From an uncultured Fibrobacter sp. (lineage in GTDB: Bacteria; Fibrobacterota; Fibrobacteria; Fibrobacterales; Fibrobacteraceae): a stretch of 64,000 nt of DNA. The first letter of the stretch is position 1. Every line of letters begins with the position of its first letter. A program made the position numbers and the translations under genes. Positions 58,469 through 62,554 of this stretch are shown here, in pieces. The stretch spans positions 1-64,000 of the forward strand of contig NZ_CAMVDO010000015.1 of assembly GCF_947166265.1 (NCBI RefSeq). The letters are read 5' to 3'. The notes under the pieces are model-generated. The model made no database searches. It had not been told where the DNA came from and saw only the letters and a program-made list of their open reading frames with translations.

Positions 58469-59317
58469 ATGAATATTAAGTCTTTTGACGACCTTGACAT
58501 TACCGACCCGATTATGTTCGGACTCGTATTCAGCAATAAGCATATCGCGCAGCCATTCATCGAACACTTGCTGGACATCAAAATCGATCACCTGGAAACT
58601 CCAGTTCCGGAGGCGGTCTTGAGCTACGATGTAAAGCACAAGGGCGTTCGCTACGATGTCTTCGCGCGGGAAACTAACGAAAACGGAGAAACGGTTCGTT
58701 CCTTTGATCTGGAGATGCAGATGGTTGACACCAAGGAGCTTCCGCAGCGGGCTAGGTACTACCAGAGCGTGGGCGACGGCGTTGCCCTTTCAAAGGGTGG
58801 TTTCTACACCAACCTCAAGGATCAATACGTCATTTTTCTGTGTCCTATGGATATTTTTGGACGCGGACTTCCCTGTTATCACTTTGAAAATAGGGCAAGC
58901 GAAGACCCAAGTATTACTTTGAACGACCTTTCTTACAAAAACTTTTATATATTTAAAAAGTACGAGGAATTTACGGACCCGGTTGTCAAGGCGTACATGA
59001 AGTATTTTGCAACCAGGAATGCGGACTCCCGTGAAACACAAAACATTAACGACCAGGTGTCTTATTACAAGGCCGACACTCTCATAAGGAACAAGTATAT
59101 GACTTACGAATATGACCTTCATGAAAGCAAGGAAGAGGGCCGCGCTGAAGGCAGGGTAGAGGGCCGAGCAGAAGGCCGTACGGAAGGGGCTGATGCTAAG
59201 GCTCGTGAAATGGCTGCTGGCATGCTTACGGAAGGCGATTCCGTTGAGAAAGTTATGCGCATTTCGAAGCTTTCTAAAGAAGACGTCCTTGCGATTAAAG
59301 CAAAACTGGAGACGTGA
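58469..59317 (+). CDS. Rpn-family PD-(D/E)XK nuclease (recombination-promoting / transposase-like)
   Basis: 282 residues. It begins FDDLDITDPIMFGLVFSNKHIAQPFIEHLL, the usual opening of PDDEXK_2/Rpn proteins (key DPIMFGLVF). Nuclease residues are Asp63 (RYDVFA) and Glu82-x-Gln84 (FDLEMQMV), with RARYYQSVGDGVALSKG following. The C-terminus has tandem EGR[A/V/T] repeats (222-240) and a helical end GDSVEKVMRISKLSKEDVLAIKAKL. E. coli Rpn proteins cut DNA and act in phage defence, held in check by their own C-terminal fragment. SD AAAAGGA. It is upstream of a small gene resembling its tail and of the repeat-bracketed module. Confidence 0.85.
   Translation: MNIKSFDDLDITDPIMFGLVFSNKHIAQPFIEHLLDIKIDHLETPVPEAVLSYDVKHKGVRYDVFARETNENGETVRSFDLEMQMVDTKELPQRARYYQSVGDGVALSKGGFYTNLKDQYVIFLCPMDIFGRGLPCYHFENRASEDPSITLNDLSYKNFYIFKKYEEFTDPVVKAYMKYFATRNADSRETQNINDQVSYYKADTLIRNKYMTYEYDLHESKEEGRAEGRVEGRAEGRTEGADAKAREMAAGMLTEGDSVEKVMRISKLSKEDVLAIKAKLET
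59099..59317 (+). other. possible internal translation start giving the Rpn C-terminal fragment
   Basis: An in-frame ATG at 59099 is preceded by AAGGA at 59086-59090 (8-nt spacing). Starting there would yield a 72-residue product, MTYEYDLHESKEEGR onward, containing the EGR repeats and the terminal helix. Intragenic RpnS antitoxins produced this way are known for E. coli rpn genes; here it is inferred from spacing only. Confidence 0.4.
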
Positions 59318-59352
59318 CCTTCGAATAATTATTGAAAGCACTGGAGGCAAAC

Positions 59353-59565
59353 ATGTTCGATCATCATGAATACGAAGTTCTCGAAGCCGAGGCCTTCTTG
59401 AAGGGTGAGGCCAGTGGCGTTGAAAAAGGTATAGAAAAAGGTGCCCAGCAGGAACGCGAAAAGGCTGATGCTGAATATGCCGCTCGTGATTCCAAGCGTG
59501 CCAATTACCTTCGTTCGCAGAATGTCCCGGACAGCGTGATTTCGGCGATGCTAGCCTTGAAGTAA
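59353..59565 (+). CDS. stand-alone Rpn-tail-like small protein
   Basis: 70 residues from an ATG with a good SD (GGAGG at 59344-59348). MFDHHEYEVLEAEAFLKGEASGVEKGIEKG is followed by AEYAARDSKRANYLRSQNVPDSVISAMLALK (key words EKGIEKG, PDSVISAMLALK). Length, KG/EG repeat and the final helix parallel the last 72 residues of the Rpn nuclease encoded 36 nt upstream. It lacks any nuclease core. It may be a separate antitoxin-like fragment, or the remnant of a second rpn gene. Confidence 0.6.
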   Translation: MFDHHEYEVLEAEAFLKGEASGVEKGIEKGAQQEREKADAEYAARDSKRANYLRSQNVPDSVISAMLALK

Positions 59566-59593: not shown

Positions 59594-59744
59594 CTTAAAC
59601 TCAAAAAAGTAAGTTTTTCATCATTTAAAGGTGCGGAATCTTTAATTTTACGAAAAAATTACCTATATTTGTCTGTAATAAGTTTAACATTTCGGTCGGA
59701 CTAGGCGAGGCGGTGGTCGCTGCGCACCAGGATGGCTGGAGTAA
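59594..59744. repeat. 151-bp direct repeat, left copy (DR-L)
   Basis: Starts CTTAAACTCAAAAAAG and ends GGCTGGAGTAA. Nearly identical (about 148 of 151 positions by eye) to 61870-62020, in the same orientation, offset 2276 bp. It contains TATATTTG (59664-59671), a GC-rich hairpin-capable segment (GGTGGTCGCTGCGCACC) and GGAG 9 nt before the ATG at 59751, so this copy serves as promoter, leader and SD of the next gene. Confidence 0.93.
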
Positions 59745-59750
59745 TTAAAT

Positions 59751-60170
59751 ATGGCGGCATATCCTAAAAGCTACCTGGCAGAAATAGTAGAAAACCAGGG
59801 GAAACTCTTTGAGCTGGTATCCGATTCCAATCCGCAGATAGACCTGGAAGACTTTATAAAGAAATTCATGACTGGCAAGACAAGGATGTTCTTGGATCGT
59901 GCCGATGCGTACCTGAGCAATATAGATTCGAAGGAACTATACGAGTTCTTTTGCAGAATGGATTCCTTTACGCCTAGGAAAGGTCGGAACATTGATGGCA
60001 TCCGTTCCAATTGGATTGGTCAGTTCTATGCCTATTACCAGTGGCAGACAGGGCTTCCTAGCAAGAAAGTCTTGGAAAAACTTCCAGTCGATTTTATGGA
60101 GGTCTCTTACTACGGACTCCACGACCTTGACCTGGACTTGGCGGTAACGAAAATCCTTGATTCAGCTTGA
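59751..60170 (+). CDS. small protein, first gene of the repeat-bracketed module
   Basis: 139 residues, soluble, helical. It starts MAAYPKSYLAEIVENQGKLFELV and has DLEDFIKKFMTGKTRMFLDRADAYLSN, WIGQFYAYYQWQTGLPSKKVLEKLP and YYGLHDLDLDLAVTKIL (key words YPKSYL, WIGQFYAYYQW, GLHDLDLDLAV). From memory, similar proteins with a YPxSYLxxVVENQGKLF start recur in gut Firmicutes and Fibrobacter next to small toxin-like genes (DUF3990 type); I give this low weight. There is no catalytic motif. Promoter and SD come from DR-L. A role as antitoxin or regulator of the two downstream genes is possible. Confidence 0.65.
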   Translation: MAAYPKSYLAEIVENQGKLFELVSDSNPQIDLEDFIKKFMTGKTRMFLDRADAYLSNIDSKELYEFFCRMDSFTPRKGRNIDGIRSNWIGQFYAYYQWQTGLPSKKVLEKLPVDFMEVSYYGLHDLDLDLAVTKILDSA

Positions 60171-60217
60171 TGTAAGCGAACAGCCTTTTGCTATATTTAG
60201 CGAAAAACGGAGGCCTA

Positions 60218-61237
60218 ATGTTTGATTCAGTGAAAATAGAGCGATTTCGCGGGATTAACCACGCGTCTATTTCTGGTTTTAGGCGTATCAACCTGTTTTT
60301 TGGCAAGAACAATTGTGGAAAGTCTTCTCTGCTAGAGGCCATCTTTTTGGCCTGTGGGCAGTCCAACCCACTTTTGCCCCTAAATATAAACGGTTTCAGG
60401 GATTATCGGAAAATACAGAAAAAGGACATTGCACTCGATTTCTATAAGTTGGACACGGAAAAAAAAATTCGGATAACGCTCCAAAATGTAGAAACTAGAG
60501 ACCTTTCCATCTCTTTTTTTGAACAGGTTGCTTCCGATATCAAGCTTGATGAAGATGGCAAGTCCGTATCAAGTATGCCCAAGGATCAGTATGGGCATGT
60601 TCTGAAATACAGCTACGGTGGACAGGAAATGGTTTCCAAGATTGTTTTCGAATCTACGGGACCGAACATTCTTCAGGATATTGACCCTCGTTACAAGGAA
60701 CGTATTAGATGTCGCTATCTTGGACCAAAGTTTGATTTTTATACGTCGATACAAGGACTAGACAACATTATCAAGAACAAGGATGAGGGGTCCATTCTAG
60801 ATGCGTTAAGGATAATCGAACCTTCCATAAAGGATTTTCGCTATTCGGATGGAGATGTCCTTGTTGATTTGGGACTCGAACAGCGAGTTCCCGTAAACGT
60901 TCTTGGAGACGGCGTCCGGAAAGTCGTATCGCTGCTCACTTCCATATACGAGTGTCGCGATGGCGTTTTGCTCGTCGATGAAATCAGCAATGGTTTTCAT
61001 TATTCCGTGATGGGAAAATTGTGGAAAGCCGTTGACAGTGCATGTCGGAGCAACAATGTACAGCTGTTCGCGACGACCCATGATCTTGATTCCATAAGGG
61101 GATTGGTGGATGGGCTTGAAGAAGAATCCGTGGCAGCGTTTCATCTTGAAAAATTGGATGACGACGAACTAAAGTCTTATTTCTTCTCGAAGGGCGACTT
61201 GGAGTACATGTTACGCCAGCGTATTGAGGTGAGGTAG
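60218..61237 (+). CDS. OLD-like AAA ATPase (AAA_15/AAA_21 type)
   Basis: 339 residues from the ATG at 60218 (SD GGAGG). ABC-type ATPase: FRGIN then Walker A GKNNCGKSS (29-37), a helical insertion with no transmembrane segment, signature-like VLGDGVRKVVSLL (about 228-240), Walker B VLLVDEISNGFHYSVM (about 250-265) and His switch FATTHDLD (about 283-290). This is the ATPase type of OLD, Gabija, PARIS (AriA) and AbiL. It has no C-terminal TOPRIM; that activity seems to be on the next gene, whose GTG begins 2 nt after this stop. TATATTTA lies upstream at 60192. Likely the sensor or motor of a two-protein defence system. Confidence 0.85.
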   Translation: MFDSVKIERFRGINHASISGFRRINLFFGKNNCGKSSLLEAIFLACGQSNPLLPLNINGFRDYRKIQKKDIALDFYKLDTEKKIRITLQNVETRDLSISFFEQVASDIKLDEDGKSVSSMPKDQYGHVLKYSYGGQEMVSKIVFESTGPNILQDIDPRYKERIRCRYLGPKFDFYTSIQGLDNIIKNKDEGSILDALRIIEPSIKDFRYSDGDVLVDLGLEQRVPVNVLGDGVRKVVSLLTSIYECRDGVLLVDEISNGFHYSVMGKLWKAVDSACRSNNVQLFATTHDLDSIRGLVDGLEEESVAAFHLEKLDDDELKSYFFSKGDLEYMLRQRIEVR

Positions 61238-61239
61238 CA

Positions 61240-61854
61240 GTGGTTCATTTTTTCATTGAATCTAGGGACGAAAAGACTCCCGAATACGTTTTCCTTATGA
61301 AATATATTGGAAAAATTCGGCCAGACTTGACTTTCGAGATTGTCCCGATGGATGGATTTGGAAACCTATTCAGTGATTCCATTAAGACCAAAATGCGCAT
61401 AAATCATGATAGGCATGAAAAGAACGTGGTTGTCGTGGACACTGATTATTCTGAAAATGACGGCGGCTTTGCCCACCGGCGAAATGACATTGCAAAACGT
61501 GCCGCAGATGAAGGTGTAGATTTTATTTTTTTCTTATTTCCGAATAACTCGGATGACGGAATCTTTGAAAATTTGCTGGATTCGATTGCGCGGAAAGATC
61601 GGCACAGGCTTTTCTTCGATTGTTTCGCTGATTACGAGAACTGCATGAAGTCGCAAAAAGATGGTGACGGTAAACCGCTGTACCAGGTCCCGAATTTGAA
61701 GGGAAAGCTGCATACCTATATTAATGCTGTTCCTATGGAAAAAAGGCTAAGAAAAATGCTTGGCAGGGGAGATTGGCAATTCGAGAATGCCGAGTATTGG
61801 GATTTGGACCATACCTATTTGACGCCGCTTAAGTCTTTCCTAGAGACTGTATAA
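61240..61854 (+). CDS. TOPRIM/DUF3226-like partner of the AAA ATPase
   Basis: 204 residues from GTG, with SD GAGGTGAGG inside the ATPase gene end. Acidic residues fit a TOPRIM-like nuclease: Glu7 in FFIESRDEKTPEYVFLMKYI, Asp67-x-Asp69 in VVVVDTDYSEND, and FFLFPNNSDDGIFENLLDSI, the FPN...G.xE pattern of DUF3226/RloB-like proteins. A C-terminal region follows with DYENCMKSQKDGDGKPLYQVPNLKGKLHTYINAVP (key words KGKLHTYINA). DUF3226, DUF4435 (AriB) and RloB proteins are encoded with AAA ATPases in anti-phage loci. The last coding part before DR-R. Confidence 0.75.
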   Translation: MVHFFIESRDEKTPEYVFLMKYIGKIRPDLTFEIVPMDGFGNLFSDSIKTKMRINHDRHEKNVVVVDTDYSENDGGFAHRRNDIAKRAADEGVDFIFFLFPNNSDDGIFENLLDSIARKDRHRLFFDCFADYENCMKSQKDGDGKPLYQVPNLKGKLHTYINAVPMEKRLRKMLGRGDWQFENAEYWDLDHTYLTPLKSFLETV

Positions 61855-61869
61855 ATTGAGCGCTTCATC

Positions 61870-62020
61870 CTTAAACTCAAAAAAGTAAGTTTTTCATCAT
61901 TTAAAGGTGCGGAATCTTTAATTTTACGAAAAAATTACCTATATTTGTCTGTAATAAGTTTAACATTTCGGCTGGACTAGGCGAGGCGGTGGTCGCTGCG
62001 CACCAGGATGGCCGGAGTAA
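61870..62020. repeat. 151-bp direct repeat, right copy (DR-R)
   Basis: Same sequence as 59594-59744 apart from three bases (GCTGG for GTCGG near the middle, GGCCGG for GGCTGG at the end). It carries TATATTTG at 61940-61947. It lies upstream of the NeuD-like gene, so it may now drive the polysaccharide cluster. Confidence 0.93.
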
Positions 62021-62035
62021 ATCTAGGGTTACGGC

Positions 62036-62554
62036 GTGTCGAAGAACGGAAATCTTCTTATTCTAGGTGCAGGTCAGTACGGCCAGATGGTGGCTGAAAT
62101 TGCCCAAGAAATGGGAATTTTCGCGAAAATCGCTTTCCTTGATGATTCGTTTGATTCTCGTCATTGCGAGCGCGTCGAAGGATCTCTGACTGATCTCCCG
62201 AAATTCGCCGCCGATTACCGCTATGGGTTCGTGGCCATTGGGAACCCGGAACTGCGCCGTAAACTTACCGAACAGCTTCTACAGAACGGCATAACCCCGG
62301 CAACGCTCGTGCACCCCACGGCATACGTGAGCCCGAGTGCGCAACTCGAATCGGGATGCTGCATCGAGCCTAACGCCACCGTGCAGACCGGCGCGACCCT
62401 CAAGACTGCGACCTTTATTGCCAGCGGGGCTGTCGTCCGGCACAACGCCGTTGTCGGCGAATATTGCCATGTAGACTGCAACGCCGTAGTGAATTCTACC
62501 GCCAATGTTCCGGCGGGTACGCATATTTTGGCCCAAGAGGCAACAAATGCATAA
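62036..62554 (+). CDS. NeuD/PglD-type sugar O-acetyltransferase with in-frame repeat
   Basis: 172 residues from GTG. N-terminal Rossmann part NLLILGAGQYGQMVAEIAQEMG and FVAIGNPELRRKL, then a left-handed beta-helix with hexapeptide-like repeats (VHPTAYVSPSAQLESGCCIEPNATVQTGA; key HPTAYVSPSAQL, YCHVDCNAVV). It acetylates an amino-sugar or similar precursor for surface glycans, as PglD does. Residues about 42-50 (RHCERVEGS) are encoded by a dispersed REP-like element inserted between the first strand-helix unit and the next. The chain is shorter than PglD (about 200), lacking the last turns. Confidence 0.85.
   Translation: MSKNGNLLILGAGQYGQMVAEIAQEMGIFAKIAFLDDSFDSRHCERVEGSLTDLPKFAADYRYGFVAIGNPELRRKLTEQLLQNGITPATLVHPTAYVSPSAQLESGCCIEPNATVQTGATLKTATFIASGAVVRHNAVVGEYCHVDCNAVVNSTANVPAGTHILAQEATNA
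62160..62185. repeat. REP-like element inside the NeuD-like coding sequence
   Basis: GTCATTGCGAGCGCGTCGAA followed by GGATCT at 62160-62185 matches the GTCATTGCGAGC...GAAGGATCT repeat type, and is read in frame as RHCERVEGS. Confidence 0.7.

Follow-up and report, generated by a model that had tools for sequence, protein, structure and literature searches.

Several described systems are akin to the locus analyzed here. Its ATPase and TOPRIM-like pair is of a type whose relatives include OLD/Gabija and the AriA/AriB proteins of PARIS. AbiL is recognized by its AbiLi ATPase and AbiLii partner, and PDC-M38 by an M38A-type ATPase directly next to an M38B-type protein, while in PDC-M42 the M42B protein is partnered by the DUF3990 protein M42A. 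Direct repeats surround the cargo of composite transposons and cassette elements, and with JUMPstart/ops and epsC (EAR) the promoter of a long polysaccharide operon is immediately followed by a structured leader.

The locus lies near the end of a 64,000-nucleotide stretch of DNA from an uncultured Fibrobacter sp., the whole of which we call the window. The features concerned are listed below.

58469 to 59317, + strand: Rpn-family PD-(D/E)XK nuclease, the ancestral upstream neighbor of the leader
59332 to 59565, + strand: stand-alone Rpn C-terminal domain, 77 aa, RpnS-like
59594 to 59744, + strand: repeat copy A, with upstream box (59600-59630), TATATTT promoter box (59664-59670) and P1 stem (59689-59698 with 59733-59742)
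59751 to 60170, + strand: PDC-M42B homologue, 139 aa
60218 to 61237, + strand: AbiLi/PDC-M38A-type ABC ATPase (AAA), 339 aa
61240 to 61854, + strand: DUF3226/PDC-M38B protein, 204 aa, TOPRIM-like by motif
61870 to 62020, + strand: repeat copy B, with the same upstream box, promoter and leader unit as copy A, in the ancestral position before the NeuD operon
62016 to 62035, + strand: second conserved leader motif (GTAA..TTAC), in which the NeuD-like gene has its SD (AGGG); absent after copy A
62036 to 62554, + strand: NeuD/PglD-like acyltransferase that opens the polysaccharide operon; a sugar transferase and an NAD epimerase come next

The three-gene module and its described relatives

Inspection of the ATPase revealed a Walker A motif, FFGKNNCGKSS, and a Walker B motif, LLVDE. 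The protein matched the AbiLi profile PDLC02336 over its full length (2.6e-58), as expected of an AbiL ATPase, followed by PDC-M38A (2e-48) and an AriA-like profile (4.8e-24); among PDB structures, only weak Rad50 matches were found. Its 204-residue partner carries the TOPRIM-like motifs ES..E and VVDTD. The best match of this protein, albeit weak, was to PDC-M38B (4.9e-07), with a still weaker one to HEC-01B (E<=0.1), and its AlphaFold model was poor (pLDDT 46.5). The two adjacent genes therefore have the arrangement of PDC-M38, with the weakness of the M38B match in mind. No AbiLii match was reported for the partner, nor an AriB match, and the pair thus differs from PARIS in spite of its AriA-like ATPase. 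Unlike AbiL and PDC-M38, the module is led by an additional PDC-M42B gene and sits behind a polysaccharide promoter and leader. Elsewhere in the genus the ATPase-DUF3226 pair was encountered only as a decayed fragment in genome G006 (contig C73; 8901-9786 of L056), a remnant with internal deletions.

The first gene of the module encodes a full-length PDC-M42B homologue (3.7e-55) that occurs once in the source genome. It is an orphan, as no DUF3990/PDC-M42A gene adjoins it, and in this it departs from PDC-M42; four DUF3990 genes are found elsewhere in the source genome, on contigs C2, C7, and C41. Of eight other loci with M42B, six have a DUF3990/PDC-M42A-type gene ahead of it, as called by family search (PADLOC PDC-M42A) in L007, L008, and L097 and by sequence reading only in L009 to L011. 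The exceptions are L012, whose M42B homologue is distant, and L098, which has a different small gene in between. M42B is also present in another genus of the family, in two of its genomes. In some Lachnospiraceae a NADAR gene follows M42B, and in L007, L008, L010, and L097 the order is DUF3990, PDC-M42B, and sometimes a NADAR gene. Such a set could possibly constitute a three-part ADP-ribosylation toxin, antitoxin, and eraser.

The sequence-only reading had described a small gene, an AAA ATPase gene, and a TOPRIM-like gene between the repeats, with no transposase or integrase inside, and the three open reading frames bear this out. The module has a G+C content of 43%, versus 56% for the polysaccharide operon, and none of its proteins had a match in viral, plasmid, or phage collections. 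By family membership, the three-gene set would act in phage defence. A search for terminator-like sites on the + strand between the module and copy B was negative. A TATATTT box a short way ahead of the ATPase gene, at 60192-60198, might serve as a promoter of its own and split M42B from the ATPase pair.

The repeat as promoter and leader of a polysaccharide operon

The two copies of the repeat are 151 bp each, share orientation, and are spaced 2276 bp apart, and the early estimate of about three differences proved exact. The mismatches are at 59696/61972 (T-C), 59697/61973 (C-T), and 59737/62013 (T-C), which leaves a longest identical run of 102 bp; all three fall within the P1 stem and preserve its pairing. 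Beyond the edges of the repeat, the flanks of the two copies have no similarity to each other. Among direct repeats in the 7-kb region the runner-up reached only 40 bp at 70%, so the 151-bp repeat is far beyond chance. A search of the 3.77-Mb source assembly, which consists of 89 contigs, revealed exactly two copies, both in the window.

What is repeated is a genus-specific regulatory unit, that of a surface-polysaccharide operon, made up of an upstream box (AAAAAAGTAAGNTTTCTGT.AT), a TATATTT promoter, and a structured 5' leader with hairpin P1, within which an inner hairpin bears a GGWGGTC loop. The edges of the repeat nearly coincide with those of the functional unit. The leader was searched for with two covariance models, R1 and R2, in 80 genomes of the genus, one per species. 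Matches came from ten genomes with R1 and from nine with R2, at one place each except for two in the genome of the window; eight other genomes thus have a single copy by R2, and R1 added a weak match in G003. All matches outside the window directly precede a polysaccharide operon, whose first gene encodes a DegT-type aminotransferase, NeuD/PglD, or a sugar transferase.

In 12 of 13 leaders the distance from the upstream box to TATATTT is constant at 64-65 nt, and the matches of the box in these leaders range from 19 to 30 of 31 positions, compared with a mean of 16 and a maximum of 20 in shuffles of one sequence. Across ten sequences, 99.1% of the cells of P1 and its inner hairpin are paired, against 95.0 +- 1.0 in shuffles and at most 49% in slid versions. 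Covariation was modest: at two pairs, both partners had changed among the ten sequences. Single-sequence folding energy is by itself weak evidence for the structure, as leader A had a z of -2.2 relative to shuffles and leader B, at -0.2 (-0.16), was no better than shuffles. The conserved pairing, together with the consistent context before polysaccharide operons, is what would be expected of a cis-regulatory RNA leader. Rfam had no match for it, and Fibrobacter polysaccharide operons thus appear to share a conserved structured leader-RNA family absent from that database, which we regard as the most interesting by-product of this work.

The leader differs from JUMPstart/ops and epsC (EAR) in both structure and sequence, yet its GGCGGTGG core recalls the GGCGGTAG of ops. 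Control of the RfaH/ops kind was considered and set aside, since an RfaH-type NusG paralogue was not found, the sole NusG gene detected in the genome being the housekeeping copy beside ribosomal genes, and the Rfam search returned no JUMPstart. The absence of the leader from Rfam and the detection of a single NusG raise the question of how these long operons are controlled.

In relatives the second leader motif reads GTAACC-CCGA-GGTTGC. The motif CCGAGGTTGCGG is by itself unspecific, since most of its matches in the genus are intragenic and the control, the pattern in reverse, matches no less often. Other polysaccharide leaders of the genus (L020, L021, L024, L025, and L078) have this 3' motif or a close variant, with an upstream hairpin that is different or shorter, and the leader family is therefore wider than R1 and R2 describe. 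By inspection only, GTTTAAC before P1 in both copies resembles the core site of an attC-like cassette, a candidate we rejected because it is not kept in relatives and has no partner site.

Relatives without the module and the origin of the arrangement

The leader itself is duplicated only in the source genome. An rpn gene ends upstream of copy A, an order shared with most relatives, whereas upstream of copy B is the end of the module; downstream of copy B is the second leader motif with the SD of the NeuD-like gene, whereas M42B follows copy A. Judged by the neighbors seen in relatives, the left flank of copy A and the right flank of copy B are the ancestral ones. In G102 the end of rpn, a single leader with a shorter hairpin, and the NeuD operon (86.6% nucleotide identity) follow one another without the module. 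G003 has the same rpn orthologue (82% nucleotide identity), a Fic gene in the gap, one short-hairpin leader, and the NeuD operon, again without the module. Because both relatives have the operon with one leader, the 2,276-bp unit of module plus leader was gained in the lineage of the window. Copies A and B are 98% identical, compared with about 71-83% between either and the closest other leaders, which dates the duplication as recent. In G004 an ATPase_2 gene lies upstream of the leader, and as G003, G004, G102, and the window all differ here, this spot holds different genes in different species.

These observations make it probable that a foreign low-GC module entered the junction between rpn and the polysaccharide operon with duplication of the regulatory unit, such that the module uses copy A and the operon copy B. 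The duplication may have arisen when a circle or donor fragment carrying a leader integrated, when the module was inserted at a widely staggered break, or through local copying. Copy A would drive transcription of M42B, and perhaps of the ATPase pair as well, with the P1 hairpin supplying the SD of M42B: the gene starts 6 bp past the end of copy A, and an SD-like GGAG recognized by inspection (59738-59741) lies inside the P1 stem. Copy B would still serve the polysaccharide operon, so that the module might be expressed under the same control as surface polysaccharide. The ATPase-TOPRIM pair would be an OLD/AbiL-like phage defence, and M42B an accessory or a retained antitoxin-like protein. Unequal homologous recombination over the identical run could then drop the module and leave the leader and operon intact. 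Transcription from copy A, the defence activity, and loss of the module by this route are what we infer from the arrangement.

The view of the module as inserted DNA between repeats that carry a promoter, as first proposed from the sequence-only reading, is supported by the empty sites in G102 and, with Fic, in G003, and by the difference in G+C content. Single copies without the module, which the sequence-only reading had proposed to look for, were likewise found in these two genomes at the NeuD operon, but no second genome was found in which the repeat brackets cargo. The geometry proposed for excision also holds, as recombination between the copies would restore a complete leader before the NeuD-like gene. 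It had been reasoned that an ordinary duplicated promoter, found once per paralogous gene, would speak against a cassette. This largely applies, because the repeat is an ordinary regulatory region that is single-copy in eight genomes; here, however, the two promoter copies enclose cargo instead of standing one before each of a set of paralogous genes. Homologous recombination might spread or remove the cassette, and we consider the module excisable in principle rather than a demonstrated mobile cassette.

An alternative that we hold possible but doubtful is that the module came first and that the 151-bp unit was later copied from before NeuD to before M42B, by template switching or ectopic conversion, perhaps replacing a DUF3990 gene. 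Copy A does stand where most other loci have that gene, and the repeat edges almost match the functional unit; two events would be needed, however, and copying of a unit 2.1 kb upstream with clean junctions is unusual. The repeat might instead be an attachment site, with the 151-bp sequence at the ends of cassettes that are inserted and excised by a recombinase whose gene lies elsewhere, and the early suggestion of a site-specific element acting from elsewhere was of this kind. Exact direct repeats around foreign low-GC DNA, the hairpin within them, and the adjoining "recombination-promoting" rpn gene would suit such a site. The repeat, however, is a conserved promoter and leader that is single-copy and brackets no cargo in the eight other genomes matched by R2, its identity extends over the complete regulatory unit instead of a short core, searches of plasmid, phage, and viral collections returned nothing for it, and the module has no integrase. 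With no recombinase linked to what is an ordinary regulatory unit, we judge this reading very unlikely and find the suggestion unsupported. A composite transposon or IS is also at odds with a repeat that lacks a transposase open reading frame, has two copies only, and is single-copy regulatory DNA elsewhere. There is an even slimmer chance that the assembly joined two separate loci, or a free circle, through the shared repeat; the identical run is comparable to short-read k-mers and the genome is in many contigs, but the three mismatches tell the copies apart, and rpn upstream of A with NeuD downstream of B is the order in G102 and G003.

Insertion of the module with duplication of the regulatory unit would be a plausible way for defence genes to come under regulation, namely by landing next to a surface-polysaccharide promoter that is duplicated, while the operon is left intact and the module is removable by simple recombination. 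A broader proposal, that the leader unit is a recurrent portal where homologous recombination swaps defence and toxin genes and that the leader RNA co-regulates defence and surface polysaccharide, seems improbable to us. If it were true, the cell would tie phage defence to expression of the layer that phages meet first.

The rpn genes upstream of the leader

The Rpn-family gene directly upstream of copy A, which the sequence-only reading had left out, is annotated "recombination-promoting nuclease/putative transposase"; the protein is a nuclease and not an integrase. Rpn proteins are DNA-cleaving defence toxins whose C-terminal antitoxin is translated separately (PMC10327210), and the adjacent 77-residue open reading frame looks like such an RpnS-like antitoxin part. 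The end of an rpn gene lies at most 0.7 kb upstream of the leader, on the same strand, in 8 of 11 genomes, and these leader-bearing genomes have only 3-19 TIGR01784 matches each. The neighbors beyond rpn differ among genomes and include greA, groEL, ruvB, a TPP enzyme, and an rlmL-like gene, as if rpn, leader, and operon relocated together. A role for Rpn in recombination at the leader would be speculation. Among the leaders of ten related genomes (L042 to L051), rpn is directly upstream in most, and the wider chromosomal surroundings vary. The Rpn gene of the window also has EGRx four-residue repeats.
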